Below are positions 2,746 to 64,000 of a stretch of 64,000 nt of DNA, piece by piece. The notes beneath the pieces are model-generated. The model was not told the DNA's origin, searched no databases, and saw nothing but the letters and a program-made list of their open reading frames with translations. Where the stretch lies: the NCBI GenBank assembly GCA_030747695.1, contig JASLKG010000001.1, positions 124,001-188,000 on the forward strand, given 5' to 3'. Origin of the DNA: Candidatus Poseidoniaceae archaeon. Lineage in GTDB: Archaea > Thermoplasmatota > Poseidoniia > Poseidoniales > Poseidoniaceae. The stretch's first letter is position 1. Each line of letters begins with the position of its first letter. The position numbers and the translations under genes are program-made.

Positions 2746-3852
2746 TTAGAAATCACTCATCATTGGAGAGCCAATATTTTCTTCATTGAAGCTTCCAGAT
2801 TCTATTAGTTCTGCAAGATAGGTATCCATCAATTCTTTCATACGCCCTCTTTTTTCTCCATCAATTGTTTCTTCTTGCATTATTTGTAATAATGAATTCC
2901 AATTGTTGATTACTGTAAGAATGGCTGAATGACTTTCTTCAGGAGGAAATACTCGTTCCACACTAGCAGTAGTAGTTCCGGATTTGTTCAGTAATTCGAT
3001 TATTGCATGGATTCTAGTTGGACCATCAATCTCTCCAGTGAGTGGATTAATCATCCCCTTTCTTGCCAATTCATCTCCAGCTTTCTCAGCTTCAGTTAAG
3101 ACAGTAGAAACCTTTCTTTGCTCTACAAAAATAGCGACACGGTCATGCATTTCTTCTGGTATGCTGTCGAGCATCATAATTTCTAATCTCATAGAAAGTG
3201 CAGCTCCTTGATCAATAATTGGGGCGAATTTGTGTGTGGGAAAATCGGTTCTACTAAGCAAAACAGTATATCCCTCAAGTGGCAATGGAACAAAACGAAA
3301 TCTGACAGGATTATCTCTTTGCAATCCTAGAGTATGTCTTCGCGTTCGATGCGAAATGGTAGAATACAAGGGACGTGGAATTATGTATCCATCAATTTTC
3401 CCTTCTGTACGTAAATTTTCTAGCCAATTAACCATTTCAATATCAGTTGATGGACATTTACCATATTCATGAGGTAATTGTACTGACACATCAGGCCTTG
3501 CACGAATCATTTGCCTTCTTGCAATTTCTTTGCATGCAATTACAATACCCTTTGATGGAAGATATTCAGGTTTATCTTCCGAAACCAATACGCACGTTGG
3601 TTCTCTACGTGGCATTACTATGGAAGCAGACAAATTGTTTGTTCGATTTTCATACCACCAATTGGCAGAAACAGCAAGTAAATCACAAAGTCCATTGTTA
3701 AGCAACTCTATTCCAGATTCTAGATGTGGAATCTCTTTTATTTCTAAATCAAAATCGAGTGGATTACTATCTTCCATTTTTTTTACATGTGTGTAGACGC
3801 CATCGCCGATTTCTGGGGCAACGAGAAGTTCAAAACGTTCTTTCTCGTCCAT
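2746..3852 (-). CDS. HemC (porphobilinogen deaminase)-like divergent protein
   Basis: ORF 2746..3900; likely start MDEKERF preceded by GAGGTGAT. Segments align by eye with HemC (SGIELLNNGLCDLLAVSANWW; RREPTCVLVSED; ARRQMIRARPDVSVQ). Confidence 0.45.
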   Translation of the reverse strand: MDEKERFELLVAPEIGDGVYTHVKKMEDSNPLDFDLEIKEIPHLESGIELLNNGLCDLLAVSANWWYENRTNNLSASIVMPRREPTCVLVSEDKPEYLPSKGIVIACKEIARRQMIRARPDVSVQLPHEYGKCPSTDIEMVNWLENLRTEGKIDGYIIPRPLYSTISHRTRRHTLGLQRDNPVRFRFVPLPLEGYTVLLSRTDFPTHKFAPIIDQGAALSMRLEIMMLDSIPEEMHDRVAIFVEQRKVSTVLTEAEKAGDELARKGMINPLTGEIDGPTRIHAIIELLNKSGTTTASVERVFPPEESHSAILTVINNWNSLLQIMQEETIDGEKRGRMKELMDTYLAELIESGSFNEENIGSPMMSDF

Positions 3853-52353: not shown

Positions 52354-55011
52354 GTGCGGGCACAAGTCATTGTAGCAATATTGCTCCTTTCTTTAGTTCC
52401 AGTGGCATCTGGTGTTGAAGGTAGAGCAATGACCGCATCAGTAGTAATTTCAGATCATATTTGGACTTCAGATCAAACAATTGATGCAGATGTATATGTT
52501 TCTGGAGCGCCTTACAATCAAAATATCACTTTGACATGGACACTAAGTGACGAAAATGGGGTACTTGTGAGCAATCAAGTAATATTCCAGATGGCTGGAT
52601 CAACACAAATAATACCGATAGAAGTTAGTCAATTCTTTTCAGGAGAGAATTTTTACGAAATTGAAATAGAGGTCAGTGTTGGTTCTACTACTGTAATTGA
52701 CTCGGTTGCATTTACAGTCTTAAGGAATACAATATTGCCCTCAATTAGTAATATCTTGGTTTTTGGAGACTCATTATCTGATATGGGTAATGCAAAAGAT
52801 TCCATCTTAAATGTTCCAGACGTACCACCTTACTGGGCTGGAAGATTTTCAAATGGAGAAGTATGGATTGAACACGTCTCGGCAGAGTTTGGATTGAATA
52901 CAACTCATGGCTCTGGCACAGCACAAGGTGACAATAGAGCATTTGGAGGGTCACAAACAGGACAAGGTTACTCTTACTTATTGTTACCAAATACGGGGAC
53001 ACAAATTAACAATTATTTGGGAAATGTACAATCTAATATTTCATCTTCTGAGTTGGTATTTTTGTGGGCTGGAGGAAATGATTTTCTTTATGGTACAGCC
53101 AACCCTGATTTGATTAGCCAGAATATGGCATCGCATGTAAGGGCACTTGCATTGGCAGGAGCTACACAATTTGTTGTAGCTAATTTACCTCCATTGGAAG
53201 TAACACCCGAGGGGGCATCACGTTCAGCACAACAAAGAGCTACAATGGCTAATGATGTGGTGACATACAATAGTAAATTGACACAAGAAATGTCAAATCT
53301 ATCTTCCTCAATGAATATTGAAATTACATTAATCGATGCCTGGACTATATTCAATCAAATCGTATCTAAGTCGCAACATGTGGGAATTACAAACACTCAA
53401 GACCAGGCATGTATCACTTCTGGAACAATTCTTCCCTTACCAATTTGTAATGCAGGAGACACAGTAGTATCAAATGCGAATGAATATTTGTTCTTTGACA
53501 AAGCACACCCTACTGCAACGATGCATCGAGTAATTGGCGCGTTTGCAATCGAGATTATTGGTGAACCGGATACAGATGGCGACGGTATTATCGATTCTGA
53601 TGATTTATGTGATTGGACTGATGATTTATCTACTGTCAATGTAGATGGTTGTGATTGGTCACAACAAGATGAAGATGCAGATGGTGTCACAAATGGTATT
53701 GATGATTGCTTGGAAACTCTAGCTGGATATGATGTTGATTCAAACGGTTGTGCTGATTACCAAAGAGATACAGATGGAGATGGGCTAACTGATGATGTAG
53801 ATCCTTGCCCAGAAGATATCCCCTACAATGATCATGATTCTGATGGTTGTGTAGATTTAGTTGATGATGATGATGACAATGATGGAATAGATGATGGTGA
53901 TGATAATTGCCCATTAGGAATGTTAGGTATTCATGATTATGATTATGATGAAGATGGATGTCACGATATAGAAGATGATGATGACGACAATGATGGGTTA
54001 TCTGATCTAGATGAATCTGAAATAGGAAGTGATTCTAATGATGTGGATTCTGATGATGATGGCGTTTGGGATGGAGTCGATGCATTCCCATTAGATCCTA
54101 CAGAACACAAAGATAGTGATTCAGATGGATACGGGGATAATTCAGATGAATTTCCAAATGATCCGAATGAATGGTTTGATTCTGATTATGATGGAGTGGG
54201 CGATAATTCAGATGCATTTCCAGATGATTCAAATGAATGGGATGACAGTGATAGTGATGGAATTGGAGACAACGCTGACGAGTGCCCCTATATTTACGGA
54301 GAAGCTTGGTATCCAGCAGGATGCCCAGATATAGATGGTGATGGTTTCGGAGATGAAGTCGATATCTTCCCAGAAGACCCTAATGAATGGCTAGATTCTG
54401 ATTATGATGGATATGGGGATAATTCAGATTTGTTCCCTTCAGATCCAAATGAATGGCATGATAGTGATTCAGATGGATATGGTGACAATAGTGATGCATT
54501 CCCACTAAATCCTTCAGAGTGGCTGGATACAGATTTAGATGGTTGTGGTGACAATTCAGACCAACTTCCACTAGATGGTACAGATTGTTTCGATTCTGAT
54601 AATGATGGAGTGGGTGATTCAACAGATCCTTGGCCAGATAATCCGAATGAATGGATGGATTCAGATTATGATGGAGTAGGAGACAATTCTGATTTTGCAC
54701 CGTATGATTCTTCAGAATCAAAAGATACTGATGGCGATGGAGTAGGCGATAATACTGACCCATGGCCTTTAGATCGGACGAAAAAGAGAGATAGTGATGG
54801 TGATGGAGTAGCAGATTCTGCAGATGCTTTCCCAGACAATCCAAACTTAGATTCATATCTCACAATTATTCTAAGTCTTCTTTTCCTTACATCATTAGTT
54901 ATTGGCGGTATAGTATTGTTCCTGAGAAAGGATAGTAATTCAACTAAATCAGAAGAAGTTTGGTCGTCCGGCGTTCCGCAAGAGGCCCCATCATTCGATG
55001 ATTGGGACTAA
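52354..55011 (+). CDS. Secreted GDSL/SGNH hydrolase with thrombospondin type-3-like Ca-binding repeats and C-terminal TM anchor
   Basis: NILVFGDSLSDMGN, FLWAGGNDFLY, FFDKAHPTATMH; many DSDGDGYGDNSDAFP repeats; YLTIILSLLFLTSLVIGGIVLFLRK. Confidence 0.88.
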   Translation: MRAQVIVAILLLSLVPVASGVEGRAMTASVVISDHIWTSDQTIDADVYVSGAPYNQNITLTWTLSDENGVLVSNQVIFQMAGSTQIIPIEVSQFFSGENFYEIEIEVSVGSTTVIDSVAFTVLRNTILPSISNILVFGDSLSDMGNAKDSILNVPDVPPYWAGRFSNGEVWIEHVSAEFGLNTTHGSGTAQGDNRAFGGSQTGQGYSYLLLPNTGTQINNYLGNVQSNISSSELVFLWAGGNDFLYGTANPDLISQNMASHVRALALAGATQFVVANLPPLEVTPEGASRSAQQRATMANDVVTYNSKLTQEMSNLSSSMNIEITLIDAWTIFNQIVSKSQHVGITNTQDQACITSGTILPLPICNAGDTVVSNANEYLFFDKAHPTATMHRVIGAFAIEIIGEPDTDGDGIIDSDDLCDWTDDLSTVNVDGCDWSQQDEDADGVTNGIDDCLETLAGYDVDSNGCADYQRDTDGDGLTDDVDPCPEDIPYNDHDSDGCVDLVDDDDDNDGIDDGDDNCPLGMLGIHDYDYDEDGCHDIEDDDDDNDGLSDLDESEIGSDSNDVDSDDDGVWDGVDAFPLDPTEHKDSDSDGYGDNSDEFPNDPNEWFDSDYDGVGDNSDAFPDDSNEWDDSDSDGIGDNADECPYIYGEAWYPAGCPDIDGDGFGDEVDIFPEDPNEWLDSDYDGYGDNSDLFPSDPNEWHDSDSDGYGDNSDAFPLNPSEWLDTDLDGCGDNSDQLPLDGTDCFDSDNDGVGDSTDPWPDNPNEWMDSDYDGVGDNSDFAPYDSSESKDTDGDGVGDNTDPWPLDRTKKRDSDGDGVADSADAFPDNPNLDSYLTIILSLLFLTSLVIGGIVLFLRKDSNSTKSEEVWSSGVPQEAPSFDDWD
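53570..54850 (+). repeat. TSP3-like Asp-rich calcium-binding repeat region
   Basis: Repeated gat-tct/tca-gat-ggn coding units. Confidence 0.85.
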
Positions 55012-57072: not shown

Positions 57073-57148
57073 GAAGAGCCGAGAGGCTAGCCATTGACAA
57101 CTGTTATGATTGGGCGATTAGTGGACGGATTGCTTCAAGCAACGTATT

Positions 57149-57221
57149 GGGCGCTTAGATCAGTTGGAAGATCGCTTGAGTGGCACTCAAGAGGCCGGGG
57201 GTTCAAATCCCCCAGCGTCCA
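57149..57221 (+). tRNA. tRNA-Ala (anticodon GGC)
   Basis: Acceptor GGGCGCT/AGCGTCC with G3:U70 identity pair, A73, anticodon arm CTTGA-GTGGCAC-TCAAG, T arm GGGGG TTCAAAT CCCCC. Confidence 0.92.
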
Positions 57222-57223
57222 TC

Positions 57224-60200
57224 TTAACCTTGCCATAAATTCCATTCTGAATTTGTATTTGGCAATCTGTAGTAATTTTGACCATTGTGAGTTAACCATT
57301 CATATCCATCAGAACTCACAGTTCCAGAAGTGGTAATGTCTGGAACTGATTGGACAGGCTGCTCTACGACTTCTTGAATAATAGGATCTTGTTCTGTAAT
57401 TACTTGTTCAGTTTCAACAGTATCTCTAATTTCAGGCATTTCTTTTTCAACTAGTTGAGTTTGATCTTCTCCAGCATATTCAAATGAAGCCTCATACTTT
57501 TCGAAATGGTCATCAAGCTCAGCACGTAATCTCTCTAAGCGTATTCCTTGGTGTGGTCCAAGCATTCGCAACATTAGCGAGTATTCCCATCTCAATGCAA
57601 TTCGATGTAATTCATCTCTCGAACGGGCTCCATTAAGCATAACTTCGTATTTCGCACACCGCTTATTTCTTGTAATAAATCCAAACATAATCCAAGAGAA
57701 AAGAGGGATACCTCCAAACATTCCAATTAAATCCCATGCCCCGAGACCAACATTCGTTCCAGGAATCACGATTTCAAAACTTTCTACAGGCACATCATTT
57801 TTGTCATAAGGATCAGTTTCTTGTCTAATCTCATCAGTGTCTGCATAACCATCACCATCATCATCAGGATCTTCGTTATCCCCTTTACCGTCGCCATCAA
57901 AATCAGACCATTCACGATAATCAGAAGGCTTCCAATCTAACTCATCAGGAACCCCATCATTATCTAGATCTCCCGGAGAATAGAAATTAGGTAAAACGTC
58001 AATACTGTCATTGTATCCATCATTATCAAAGTCGAATAAATAAGGATCAGCTTCAGTACCGGTCAAATTGTCACCTAAACCATCTCCATCTTTATCCTCC
58101 CATTGAGTGGGATTATCTGGGAATAAATCAGCTCCTGATCCAAGAGGATTGTCTCCATAGCCATCTCCATCTCTATCGGTGGTCTGTGTTGGATCGAATG
58201 GGAAAGCATCAGCATTGTTTCCTACGCCATCTCCATCAGTATCTTTCCATTCTGTTGGATCATCAGGAAATTCGTCAGCTCTATTTCCAAGGGGGTCATC
58301 TCCGTAGAGATCTCCATCTCTATCTGAGGATTGTGTTGCATCATTTACGAAAGCATCGTCTTCATCAGCGACTCCATCTCTATCTGAATCAGCCCACCTT
58401 TCTGGGTCATTAGGAAACCAATCACCTTCTGTACCGTATTTGTTGTCTCCATGCCCGTCGCCATCAGTATCATTCCATTGCGTTCCATCGGAAGGGAATT
58501 GGTCGACAAATTCAGCACCCGCTGATTGATTATCTCCCCAACCGTCACCATCTCTATCTGCCCATTGTGAATCTGCAAATGGAAACGCGTCACCATTATC
58601 AGACCATCCATCTGAATCAGAATCTGGGCATCCATAAACATCCTTTGTACTATAACCTTCTAATGTTGGACAAGAATCTCCTCTTGTTCCAAATTCATTA
58701 TCTCCATATCCATCACCATCTGTATCAAACCATTGTGATGAATCTAGAATCCAAACATCAGGTGTAGTTCCATTTGGATTATCTCCATATCCATCGCCAT
58801 CTGTATCCTTCCATTGTGTATCATCATCATCGAAAGGATCGATAAGATCTGCCCACCCATCACCATCTGAATCAGGGCAACCAATGTAACCTCCAAGTGT
58901 AGAAGTTCCTGCTTGACTTGGACAATTATCAAGGCTGTCTAGATTGCCATCATCATCGTCATCATAATCTTCAGCATCTGGTATTCCATCACCGTCAGTA
59001 TCACGAATTACAGCGATTGTTATTTCGACAGTTGCGACGTAAGGACCCGCGACAGCTGAAATATTGTGTCTACTCACACCGAATGTTGAGTTTCCAATTG
59101 AATAAATAGTACCAGTGTTTTCATCAAGTTCAAATCCTTGTGGTAATGTTGGTGAAACAACAAATGTGTAATTCCACCCTGAAACATAATTTTCATTTTG
59201 TTTTGTTTCACCTTCAAGATAAGTTAGAATTGAAGATGGAGTTGGTAAATCCATGTCAATGAGTCCAGGATATGGGTTTTGTTCTTGCGTTCCATCTCCG
59301 AGGCGCCCATCATTATTATCTCCCCAGCATTGTATTGCACCATCAGATGTAGTAGCACACTTAAACGTGGAACCAGAGGCTATCGAAGTTGCAGTAACTC
59401 CTCCATCTAGTTGTATGGATATCGGTGAATAAGTATCGCCACCAATTAGGCCGGTACCAATTTGGCCGTAAATGTTAGACCCCCAACAATTTAGTGATCC
59501 GTCATCATGTAAAGTACATGTTGAATCTCTTCCAGCACTTAGAGAAACTATCGGGGAATAATATTGCATATCAATTTTCACAGGCCTTCTAATTATTTGT
59601 GAATTAGAATTAGAAACATTTCCTACTCCAATTTCTCCGTATGCATTTCGCCCCCAACACCATAGAGAATCATCAGTCATTACTGCACATGAATGGCGCA
59701 TACCAACAGACATGAATGAAACTTCATACCCTCGAGGTAGATCTACAGGTATAGGAGTGTGAGCATATGACGCAGTACCACTTAAGTGCCCACTCCCAGT
59801 CCCCATATTTCCATAAATTTGGTTGCCCCAACAATACATGGTACCATCATCCATTACTGCGCATGTATAGGATTCAGTGGAGTCTATTGAAATTGCAAAT
59901 CTGTCTTCAGGTAGCATTACAGTTTGAGGTAATCCTGAATATGATGGAGATGTACTACCAATTCCTAGTTGTCCGTAACTATTCCATCCCCAACATTCGA
60001 CAGAACCGTCATCCATCAGTGCACAAGCAAATTTGTCTCCAGTGCTAATCATCGTGGCGTTACTCGACCAAGGTAGAAGTACTTCTCTGGGATTCAATCT
60101 ATCGTAATCTGTCGCATCAGTATTCCATGAACCTTGCCCATTCTGTCCATATTGACCATCGCCCCAGCACATTACTCTATTTCCTTCAGTAAGTATGCAT

Positions 60201-63200
60201 GTATTATAGCGTCCTACTGATACCTGTTTCACTACTGGATCATCTCCATTAAACCTTACAGGTGTGGGGCTTCTACGTACATTGGTAGAAAGATCTCCTA
60301 ATTGTCCATCTCCATTGTTTCCCCAACAGTATAATTTTCCTTCTTGATCAATTCCACATGAATGGCCATAATTTGCATCGACAGCAATCATTGAAACTTC
60401 TGAATTAGCATCCTTGTATGAGATTGAATTTGTCCAAGCAGGTGCAGAATTTTGTTTACGATCAATTATCATTGCATCATAATCTATTGTTCCCTGATTA
60501 CTTGCATCTAGTGTGTTGACATTCCACAATAGTAATCCACTTTGATTTGCATTTGATGAAATTGTTAGAGTAGATCCATTCATTGACATTCCTTGAGGTA
60601 ATTGAGTCACTGAGTAGTTATTTATTCCCCATCCTATCGGTTGTATGATTTTGGTATATTCTTCAGAAATCACATAACGGAATCTATCCGAGTTCCCCTC
60701 ATTTAAGCTGATTATTCTGCCAGCTGAATCGTAACCCCAACATGTAATTTCAGCATTCTCTGTAATGCCACAAGTAAATAGATGCCCTATGCTGATTGAA
60801 ACAAATCGATGATTATATTTTGATTCTACATAAATTGGTGAATAAACATTTGATGGCTGTTCATTGTTAATAGAACCTTCAACTTGGTTATAATTATTGT
60901 AACCCCAACAATAGGCAGATCCATTTTTCAAAACAGCACAAGAATGATGTTCTCCAGTAGAAATTTGGACAGCAATTGATCCACTTGGTAACTCAACGAA
61001 TTCAGGAGTCCATGCATCTCCAGCCTCTCCTATTCCTAGCTGTCCGTAATTATTCCGGCCCCAACAATAAACTGAGTTATTGTCCAATATTGCACACGAA
61101 TGGCTAACTGCCAATGAGATGCCTATTGCTTTCCGGTTTTGTGGTAATTCAACATAGATTGGTAAGTGGCTGTTTGTTTGGCTATTATCTCCTAATTTAC
61201 CATTGCCGTTATCTCCCCAACAGTAAACCGAACCATTATCAGTGATTGCACAAGTGTGATAATTTCCAAGTGAAATATCAGTTGCTCTTTGATTACCAGG
61301 TAAATCTACAATGTATGGCCGATTATAGCTAGATTGTGACCCTATTCCAAGTTGTCCAGCGCTGTTATATCCCCAACAGTATAATTCTAGATCTTCAAAA
61401 ATACCACAACTATGTCCATAACCAACTCCAATTTGTAATGCACGGGTTAGATCATTTCCATTGGAATCAACATCTATTTTTTGTGGGATGTCGTATTTGG
61501 AGTTACCATGTGAGTATCCGTTACCAATTTGTCCGTAATTATTTCTTCCCCAGCAATACAATGTACCTTCATAGTCGATACCACATGTGTGATCCTGGCC
61601 TGTTGACAAACTTTCCAACGGTTCTTCGAAATTGTATATCTTGTAAGGAGATGTATAAGCTCCAGAATAGGAACCAGATCCTAATTGCCCATAACTATTG
61701 TCGCCTTGACAATAATTGTACATATTGGATGTAATGAAACAAGTATGCCCTCCTCCGGATTCAATTTGTATTGGGATCAGAGAGTTTTCTCCTAATATGG
61801 ACATTCCGATGGAATGTGAAGCAACACGATTACTCCATGGATCAATGCGCTCAATTATTTGAAAACTAATCGTTACTGTGATATTCTTAATAGAATTTGA
61901 AAATACGACTGATGCACTGTGGTTTCCAACTGTTAAGTTACCATTTAATTCCATCGAGTAAGTACCATTATTCCACGCAACACCATTCGGATATGATCCA
62001 ATCGGTGTTGAAATATAATCCCATCCAGCAATATGTATTGGTATTGAAATTTGAGTTCCATGAATGAATTGAATTGAATCATTTAAGCGCTCACCATAAT
62101 CCTTGACCAATACTGGAACAGAATTACTCGAACTTACTCCACTCCCCAATTGCCCAGAAGTTCCTATTCCCCAACATCTTGGTGCGCCATCATGGAATAA
62201 AGCACAAGCAAAATTTGTTCCTACAGTCACCTGTGATGAATCTAAGTGTGAGATCGCAGTAAGTGTTTGAGGAGAATTTTGTTGACTATTGCTGCTGCCA
62301 CTACTCCCGAGACCAAGTTCGCCATTGTAGTTTGAACCCCAACACTTTATTTGGCCGTTATCGAATAAAGCACATGTTGAAGATCCTCCTGCTGAGATTT
62401 GAATTGGATTATTTAATCCAGATAATATTACAGAAGTCGGCGAATTTTTATCATCAATATTTCCATTGCCAAGTTGCCCGAAGGTATTTTGACCCCAACA
62501 TTTTATCGAATAATCATCTAATATTGCACATACGTGGTAATCGCCTGCTTCTATCGCCAAAGCATAGCGGCCATTTGGTAAGGATACTTTTGTTGGATAG
62601 TTTTGATCAGTCAAATTACCTACACCTAATTGCCCTTGATTATTACGACCCCAGCAGTATATGGCACCAGTATCTACAATTGCACAAGAATTAGAGTAAC
62701 CTAAAGTTAAACTAATTGCAGATAAATTATTTGGAAAATATACTTGCTTTGGCATGATTCCTGATGAATAGATATTGCCATCTCCTATTTGCCCATAATT
62801 GCCAATTCCCCAGCACCAAGTGGTAGTGTCGAACTTAATCGCACAAGTGTGTGCGCCTCCAGCAGAAACACTTGCTAATTTGTGCCCGTAAATATCAGAA
62901 TCACTTGTGTATTCTCTTGGATATTCAACATGTCCTGAATTTGATCCATCACCCAAGCGATAATGTGCACGAGAGCCCCAGCATAGTAATTCAGATTCAT
63001 CGTTTAGGGCACATGAGTGTACTGCTCCAGTAGATACTGTAGAGAAGTTAGTCTGTTCATTAACATTGGACTCTCTTGGATAATTGTAATTTACATTGCT
63101 ACCAGTGCCCAATTGTCCAGAATTTCCTATTCCCCAGCAATACAAGTCACCTTGATGTTCAACAAAACATGCGTGATTATGGAATGCATTAATCATACTA

Positions 63201-64000
63201 ATTTGGTTGTTTTCATAGATAGAATTAGCAGAGGCATTACCCAACCATGGCCCTTCAACTCGCCCTTCCATAGAATTTATTTTTACAGATTTATATGCAA
63301 TTTGTATATTTCTTGTACCAAAAATATCAACAGTTTGCAGATTAAATGTCCCCGGAGTTAATGGCGTCCCATCATATGACAAAATTCGTGTGGATGAATT
63401 GAATGTTATGCTATTTGGCAAAGTCCCAGAAATAGAGAAATTGGAATTCCATCCCACATCTATAATGGTATTATTTATTTGATTCCCCTCAACGAAATTT
63501 AGATGTGTAGTTAGTTTGACAGAACCATCATATTCTTCAGTTGGGTAAATGAATGTAGAAGGTTGGTATCTCGTAGTTTGTGTAGCATCACCTAATCCAT
63601 AGTAGGAATTGGCTTTGCCCCAACAACTCACAGCACCATTGTCATATTGTGCACAGGTTTGGTAGGCACTATTGTCCATTGAAATTATGCCTATGTCATT
63701 GTTAGATGTATGTTTTTTTACCCAAGTTGGTGTAGTCATTTCGGTATTATTTCCATTACCAATTTGCCCATATGCATTGTCACCCCAGCATAATGCCGAA
63801 CCATTTCTAAGCCATGAACAGGTGGTGCCTTGACCGGTAGTCACTCCTACTACCTGGTATGATGAATCTAGGATCTGTATTGGTGTGAAAATATTGGTCT
63901 TGTTACCGTTTCCGATTTGTCCATTATTATTAGATCCCCAGCAGTACAAACTGAAATCATCAAAAATAGCACATACATGCCTCCATCCTGATGATAATGA
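57224..64000 (-). CDS. Giant secreted protein: RCC1 repeat blocks + Ig-like domains + TSP3-like repeats + TM + cytoplasmic tail; 5' end outside window
   Basis: 2241 aa ORF; frame stays open upstream of the listed TTG start to base 64000 (SLSSGWRHVCAIFDDFSLYCWGSNNNGQ), so N-terminus is missing. Confidence 0.9.
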   Translation of the reverse strand, partial: SLSSGWRHVCAIFDDFSLYCWGSNNNGQIGNGNKTNIFTPIQILDSSYQVVGVTTGQGTTCSWLRNGSALCWGDNAYGQIGNGNNTEMTTPTWVKKHTSNNDIGIISMDNSAYQTCAQYDNGAVSCWGKANSYYGLGDATQTTRYQPSTFIYPTEEYDGSVKLTTHLNFVEGNQINNTIIDVGWNSNFSISGTLPNSITFNSSTRILSYDGTPLTPGTFNLQTVDIFGTRNIQIAYKSVKINSMEGRVEGPWLGNASANSIYENNQISMINAFHNHACFVEHQGDLYCWGIGNSGQLGTGSNVNYNYPRESNVNEQTNFSTVSTGAVHSCALNDESELLCWGSRAHYRLGDGSNSGHVEYPREYTSDSDIYGHKLASVSAGGAHTCAIKFDTTTWCWGIGNYGQIGDGNIYSSGIMPKQVYFPNNLSAISLTLGYSNSCAIVDTGAIYCWGRNNQGQLGVGNLTDQNYPTKVSLPNGRYALAIEAGDYHVCAILDDYSIKCWGQNTFGQLGNGNIDDKNSPTSVILSGLNNPIQISAGGSSTCALFDNGQIKCWGSNYNGELGLGSSGSSNSQQNSPQTLTAISHLDSSQVTVGTNFACALFHDGAPRCWGIGTSGQLGSGVSSSNSVPVLVKDYGERLNDSIQFIHGTQISIPIHIAGWDYISTPIGSYPNGVAWNNGTYSMELNGNLTVGNHSASVVFSNSIKNITVTISFQIIERIDPWSNRVASHSIGMSILGENSLIPIQIESGGGHTCFITSNMYNYCQGDNSYGQLGSGSYSGAYTSPYKIYNFEEPLESLSTGQDHTCGIDYEGTLYCWGRNNYGQIGNGYSHGNSKYDIPQKIDVDSNGNDLTRALQIGVGYGHSCGIFEDLELYCWGYNSAGQLGIGSQSSYNRPYIVDLPGNQRATDISLGNYHTCAITDNGSVYCWGDNGNGKLGDNSQTNSHLPIYVELPQNRKAIGISLAVSHSCAILDNNSVYCWGRNNYGQLGIGEAGDAWTPEFVELPSGSIAVQISTGEHHSCAVLKNGSAYCWGYNNYNQVEGSINNEQPSNVYSPIYVESKYNHRFVSISIGHLFTCGITENAEITCWGYDSAGRIISLNEGNSDRFRYVISEEYTKIIQPIGWGINNYSVTQLPQGMSMNGSTLTISSNANQSGLLLWNVNTLDASNQGTIDYDAMIIDRKQNSAPAWTNSISYKDANSEVSMIAVDANYGHSCGIDQEGKLYCWGNNGDGQLGDLSTNVRRSPTPVRFNGDDPVVKQVSVGRYNTCILTEGNRVMCWGDGQYGQNGQGSWNTDATDYDRLNPREVLLPWSSNATMISTGDKFACALMDDGSVECWGWNSYGQLGIGSTSPSYSGLPQTVMLPEDRFAISIDSTESYTCAVMDDGTMYCWGNQIYGNMGTGSGHLSGTASYAHTPIPVDLPRGYEVSFMSVGMRHSCAVMTDDSLWCWGRNAYGEIGVGNVSNSNSQIIRRPVKIDMQYYSPIVSLSAGRDSTCTLHDDGSLNCWGSNIYGQIGTGLIGGDTYSPISIQLDGGVTATSIASGSTFKCATTSDGAIQCWGDNNDGRLGDGTQEQNPYPGLIDMDLPTPSSILTYLEGETKQNENYVSGWNYTFVVSPTLPQGFELDENTGTIYSIGNSTFGVSRHNISAVAGPYVATVEITIAVIRDTDGDGIPDAEDYDDDDDGNLDSLDNCPSQAGTSTLGGYIGCPDSDGDGWADLIDPFDDDDTQWKDTDGDGYGDNPNGTTPDVWILDSSQWFDTDGDGYGDNEFGTRGDSCPTLEGYSTKDVYGCPDSDSDGWSDNGDAFPFADSQWADRDGDGWGDNQSAGAEFVDQFPSDGTQWNDTDGDGHGDNKYGTEGDWFPNDPERWADSDRDGVADEDDAFVNDATQSSDRDGDLYGDDPLGNRADEFPDDPTEWKDTDGDGVGNNADAFPFDPTQTTDRDGDGYGDNPLGSGADLFPDNPTQWEDKDGDGLGDNLTGTEADPYLFDFDNDGYNDSIDVLPNFYSPGDLDNDGVPDELDWKPSDYREWSDFDGDGKGDNEDPDDDGDGYADTDEIRQETDPYDKNDVPVESFEIVIPGTNVGLGAWDLIGMFGGIPLFSWIMFGFITRNKRCAKYEVMLNGARSRDELHRIALRWEYSLMLRMLGPHQGIRLERLRAELDDHFEKYEASFEYAGEDQTQLVEKEMPEIRDTVETEQVITEQDPIIQEVVEQPVQSVPDITTSGTVSSDGYEWLTHNGQNYYRLPNTNSEWNLWQG
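57800..58995 (-). repeat. TSP3-like Asp-rich repeats in the giant protein
   Basis: DTDGDGYGDN / DRDGDGWGDN units. Confidence 0.85.
59270..64000 (-). repeat. RCC1 repeats (24 CWG/CQG-type units visible) in blocks separated by Ig-like spacers
   Basis: HxCAxxxxxSxYCWGxNxYGQLGxG consensus counted in the translation. Confidence 0.88.

Follow-up and report, generated by a model that had tools for sequence, protein, structure and literature searches.

Several known propeller proteins resemble the one considered here. UVR8, RPGR, HERC2, and RCC1 itself are intracellular proteins with one to three propellers per chain, each built of seven four-stranded blades. Secreted bacterial RCC1 proteins (the Rhodococcus cutinase-RCC1, Euzebya, Pseudomonas Ig-RCC1, Gemmatirosa, and Hymenobacter type IX secretion system (T9SS) proteins) have 7 or 14 units, forming one or two propellers. 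BLIP-II, a secreted RCC1-fold propeller, binds protein and inhibits an enzyme (PMC9218822); it is a single small soluble domain. Here we describe a 3,497-residue protein with 42 RCC1 units, arranged as six blocks of seven, from a Marine Group II (MGII) archaeon (Ca. Poseidoniaceae). The 3' two-thirds of its gene lie at one end of the 64,000-nucleotide stretch that was analysed (the window), which spans positions 124001-188000 of contig C1 in a 1.79 Mb genome that is 87% complete.

The fold, the count of seven, and a cysteine pair in each blade are already known or are found elsewhere. What is new is a chain of six propellers, borne on a stalk and fitted with a new anchor, in what would be an unusually large secreted propeller protein. 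The bacterial proteins share the sevens, but they use other sorting signals and have neither the giant chain nor this anchor. No paper combining RCC1 with Marine Group II was found in the literature searched, from which subscription literature and preprints were excluded; in one candidate (PMC10804542), RCC1 proved to be part of a strain name.

Six blocks of seven RCC1 units

The reading frame at 57224..64000 (minus strand) contains no stop codon up to the window edge. On the parent contig, which continues past this edge, the complete gene occupies C1:181224-191717 (3,497 amino acids from ATG) and extends 3,717 bases beyond the window. Its true start therefore lies outside, and not at the TTG at 63949. 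The protein begins with a basic and then hydrophobic segment (MARHYQLLVSIFLASLMLMMPQ), and its orthologues have signal-like N-termini as well. Immediately next to the giant gene's stop codon lies a tRNA-Ala (GGC) gene (window 57148-57223, plus strand).

The window frame matches three RCC1 families, all above curated cut-off: PF25390 (795 bits, cut-off 150; best E 9e-240); PF00415 (555 bits, cut-off 21.7; 22 stretches); and PF13540 (481 bits, cut-off 22; 23 stretches). An earlier note, made from the window sequence alone, had counted 24 RCC1-like units in three complete blocks of seven and a fourth block cut by the edge. This count is correct (3 + 7 + 7 + 7), and the upstream sequence completes it to 42 units in blocks of 7,7,7,7,7,7. 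Successive units are ~50-62 residues apart, and the distance from block to block is 138-162 residues. Within the window, the array comprises:

57224..64000, minus strand: giant gene, 3' two-thirds (residues 1240-3497 out of 3,497); continues to C1:191717
63533..64000, minus strand: RCC1 block 3, visible units 5-7 of 7; the block reaches 64654 in window numbering
62084..63229, minus strand: RCC1 block 4, seven units with seven C-x9-C pairs
60650..61801, minus strand: RCC1 block 5, seven units; closes into a seven-bladed propeller in the AlphaFold model
59237..60418, minus strand: RCC1 block 6, seven units with seven C-x9-C pairs

The AlphaFold model of block 5, made from an input of 18 aligned blocks, has a mean predicted local distance difference test score (pLDDT) of 81.7 and a predicted template-modelling score (pTM) of 0.82; its 28 strands form seven four-stranded groups. 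A Foldseek search with this model returned UVR8 first, followed by RPGR, HERC2, and RCC1; superposition on UVR8 gave a template-modelling score of up to 0.89 (by target length) and a root-mean-square deviation of 2.0-2.1 Å. UVR8 is also the best Protein Data Bank (PDB) match by sequence (E 2.5e-82). The model supports a closed seven-bladed fold for block 5, shared with the eukaryotic proteins, and the common unit number and alignment suggest that the other five blocks fold in the same way. The string of complete seven-bladed propellers envisaged in the earlier note is thereby upheld by the predicted structure and fold search, by the six-by-seven arrangement in the gene and its orthologues, and by the unit counts across the order described below.

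Every one of the 42 units carries a single cysteine pair, which together account for 84 of the protein's 89 cysteines. Two cysteines in nearly every unit had been noted before, about 12 residues apart; the spacing is in fact exactly 10 (C-x9-C) in 42/42 units. In the block 5 model, the paired cysteines (46/56, 98/108, and so on) occupy neighbouring hairpin strands. Both positions could be aligned in 993 units: 990 of these carry the two cysteines, 3 have neither, and not one has just one; the RCC1 profile favours cysteine-bearing units and so biases the pair frequency, but this bias alone would not erase every single-cysteine unit. Because the cysteines are kept or lost only together, and because they lie on neighbouring strands in each predicted blade, it is likely that a cross-strand disulfide clamps each blade, which lends indirect support to the disulfide stabilization proposed earlier.

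At the aligned positions, UVR8 lacks the C-x9-C pair. In four of six bacterial proteins sampled, almost all units bear it, and the Hymenobacter and Geobacillus proteins have none. Since the sampled bacterial proteins have 7 or 14 units, and four of the six have the pair, both traits belong to secreted RCC1 proteins more widely and not to this archaeon in particular. The Geobacillus protein, with 7 units and no cysteines, is plasmid-encoded (L249 2821-6015) and its gene sits between those for an ATPase of the type II secretion system/type IV pilus (T2SS/T4P) kind and a type II secretion F-protein.

Orthologues of the giant gene are present in single amplified genome (SAG) AH-273-F07 (G267, from a single cell), G168, SAT2971, and SP189. 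Each intact orthologue has blocks of 7,7,7,7,7,7, and the G168 copy is split over two contigs with 28 + 14 units. Each block is 54-67% identical to the corresponding block of the AH-273-F07 orthologue, as against 29-40% for the other blocks, which argues that the six blocks are old, separately conserved heads. The age of the array is also suggested by the units themselves, since those at the same position in different blocks are barely more alike (33%) than those at different positions (31%); recent block duplication was rejected on this basis.

The gene contains only short DNA repeats. In this otherwise diverged gene, blocks 1 and 3 share an exact 41-bp repeat (gene nucleotides 764-804 and 3305-3345; L025, minus strand), perhaps the result of gene conversion. 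Repeats are a known assembly hazard, and this one might be taken as a sign that copies had been collapsed or duplicated, the outcome that the earlier note regarded as fatal to its proposal. However, the blocks of the gene share only 30-39% protein identity with each other, 42 units are found in five genomes, one of them single-cell, and the block order is identical wherever orthologues were compared. The reading of the array as an assembly or duplication error has a negligible chance of being correct, and was rejected.

RCC1 propellers are spread across the order (Ca. Poseidoniales), with matches in 228 of its 293 genomes and 19 of its 22 genera; when 390 genomes of the phylum were sampled, only five with matches fell outside the order. 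The number of units is a multiple of seven (7, 14, 21, 28, or 42) in 40 of 45 uncut RCC1 frames, as against roughly one in seven by chance, although these frames were picked from strong matches and large genes, orthologues included, and so are neither random nor fully independent. Several of the non-multiples consist of fragments in overlapping frames (3 + 11 in L221) or contain degenerate units, and some propellers are interrupted by an inserted domain, with the total still a multiple of seven. Highly repetitive propellers of other families, by comparison, show a continuum of blade numbers (PMC9218822).

The other RCC1 proteins of the order have similar propellers, mostly with 7, 14, 21, or 28 units, but fewer of them, and often long or inserted domains. 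Among the frames examined, 42 units in regular alternation of propeller and spacer are confined to the giant's orthologue group. The same genome encodes a second RCC1 giant (L027 372-13361; G000:C7, plus strand), a 4,329-residue frame with 21 units, whose second propeller is interrupted by inserts of ~175-180 residues; it ends with a transmembrane segment, a coiled-coil-like stretch, and a helix-hairpin-helix-like end in place of the shared anchor described below. In a related genome, 14 nearly identical consecutive units (L194 2991-7967) represent a recent blade amplification.

The shared C-terminal anchor

The C-terminus of the giant protein comprises three elements:

57668..57736, minus strand: ~residues 3328-3350, with the single transmembrane helix at 3330-3348, followed by basic TRNKR, where the cytosolic side is expected
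57317..57667, minus strand: helical tail, conserved (GPHQGIRLERLRxELDD), with a disordered acidic linker; unmatched in Pfam, NCBIfam, and the PDB
57227..57316, minus strand: C-terminal three-stranded mini-domain, GYEWLTHNGQNYYRLPNTNSEWNLWQG, which also ends other large proteins of the order

The single helix and tail that the earlier note described are present; what it missed is that they belong to an anchor module shared by many proteins. Helix and tail recur in 118 of the order's 293 genomes and 16 of its 22 genera, and those of the giant are 58% identical to the same region of a neighbouring 1,442-residue protein. Ectodomains carried by the anchor include RCC1 (7 or 42 units), SBBP, FG-GAP, and DUF4886. 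Searches with helix and tail gave no NCBIfam family, only a chance match in Pfam (E 0.15), and a best E of 0.36 for PDB folds; a sequence search with the mini-domain gave chance matches only. The helix and tail are thus a conserved module, new here. A viral origin was considered and dropped, as the anchor has no relative among viral contigs. In the GTDB collection, the anchor occurs in Poseidoniales or Euryarchaeota records and at two loci (L163 and L169) titled as Deltaproteobacteria single cell AH-558-G13, which are possibly co-sorted or mislabelled.

An AlphaFold model of the anchor contains helices at 16-51, 56-71, and 77-102, a disordered linker, and the three-stranded C-terminal mini-domain; its pTM is only 0.41, so the mutual arrangement of these parts is unreliable. 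Might the tail do more than hold the protein? The ectodomain could sense or capture ligands while the tail signals, or docks a partner common to all anchor proteins. Across unrelated ectodomains, identity of the module to the query is still 48-60%, and GPHQG and ER.R.ELDD are invariant, conservation that a plain anchor would not need. The ordered helices and separate mini-domain predicted for the tail, along with its breadth among genomes, point the same way. Nevertheless, the tail contains none of the known signalling domains (kinase, phosphatase, methyl-accepting, or other) and matches nothing in Pfam or the PDB, and its conservation may serve only membrane insertion, sorting, or clustering. 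A receptor is therefore an unlikely reading of the giant.

The stalk and a putative binding function

Between the propellers, and from the last of them to the anchor, lie the remaining, putatively extracellular elements:

63230..63532, minus strand: spacer 3, Ig-like; weak He_PIG match, E 0.018
61802..62083, minus strand: spacer 4; without He_PIG match
60419..60649, minus strand: spacer 5, Ig-like; weak He_PIG match, E 0.0033
59006..59236, minus strand: spacer 6, Ig-like; weak He_PIG match, E 0.018
57800..59005, minus strand: Asp-rich stalk, thrombospondin type 3 (TSP3)-like, 402 residues, 26% Asp

An Ig-like spacer after each complete block and a TSP3-type stalk had both been proposed; the Ig-like character of the spacers is weak. 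All six spacers are alike in length, and most keep an LPxG-type motif. The window protein as a whole barely reaches the He_PIG (PF05345) cut-off (24.6 against 24 bits); taken singly, spacers 1, 3, 5, and 6 fall below it (E 5e-4 to 0.018), and spacers 2 and 4 do not match. The stalk is indeed Asp-rich, and probably binds calcium, but its DxDGDG pattern is TSP3-like only: its scores of 18.4 and 16.3 bits against PF02412 and PF18884 are below the cut-off of 25.

An outside location is suggested by the signal-like N-terminus, the single transmembrane helix with its basic cytosolic flank, the Asp-rich stalk, and the disulfide-type cysteines; the giant would thus be a secreted, membrane-anchored surface protein. 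Its probable role, and the best-supported of those considered, is that of a multivalent adhesin or binding stalk. A long arm would be made up of six closed RCC1-like propellers of seven blades, with an Ig-like spacer behind each. The stalk would raise this arm off the membrane, and the transmembrane helix and conserved cytosolic tail would hold it. Each propeller would act as a separate, independently conserved head that binds proteins or other extracellular ligands (particles, cells, or secreted proteins). MGII archaea are described as partly particle-attached, and are reported to have widespread thrombospondin genes linked to adhesion (PMC6461757). Among RCC1-fold propellers, protein binding has a precedent in secreted BLIP-II (PMC9218822).

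Several points weigh against this proposal. The structure model covers one block of the six. The signal peptide was called by eye. The He_PIG and TSP3 assignments are at or below curated cut-offs. Finally, among the genus's 27 genomes, 4 contain the giant gene, although the genomes are incomplete; hence it is no core surface component.

Great length, regular blocks, the stalk, and a cysteine pair in every blade would also suit stiff bricks that provide height or a coat, without specific ligand. But the blocks keep separate identities between species, which favours binding heads over bricks, and so patchy a gene is not what one expects of a coat component; we consider a purely structural role improbable. 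BLIP-II provides the precedent for yet another function, an array of inhibitors or decoys that neutralizes enzymes of competitors or viruses. Its similarity to the giant (E 3e-8) is weak compared with that of UVR8, the giant has a membrane anchor, and no known defence gene was noticed adjoining the giant gene, so we give such an array very little credence.

Genomic neighbours and significance

The 1,442-residue protein encoded by the divergent neighbour (L028 1141-5469) combines DUF4886, SBBP-like repeats, an Asp-rich stalk, and the same anchor as the giant. Genes of this type lie head-to-tail behind the giant gene in SAG AH-273-F07 (L111 10708-15198), where two in-frame TAA codons interrupt the frame, and in SAT2971. 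Another gene in the window (52354-55011) encodes a GDSL lipase domain (E 3e-20) with the same kind of Asp-rich stalk and a transmembrane segment, followed by a different tail. Located 75 bp upstream of the giant gene on the same strand is a gene for a 256-residue multi-pass protein with weak DUF6962/ceramidase similarity (L025 11794-12564); it was rejected as a partner of the giant, since it was not found next to the orthologues.

A broader idea is possible, though we hold it only tentatively. MGII archaea may have a class of surface receptors with interchangeable ectodomains, mostly propellers (RCC1, SBBP, and FG-GAP), on Asp-rich stalks, joined to a single, previously undescribed transmembrane and cytosolic tail module that would recruit a common intracellular partner. 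The six-propeller protein would be the largest member seen here.

In ocean surface waters, MGII archaea are more abundant than any other archaea, and they have no cultured representatives (PMC6461757). The giant protein may bear on their attachment to particles or cells: with its defined, foldable putative binding heads and shared anchor, it offers concrete molecules for expression and testing. Moreover, unit counts that almost always fall in sevens and cysteine pairs that are either complete or absent provide clean natural data on how RCC1 propellers may be closed and stabilized outside cells.

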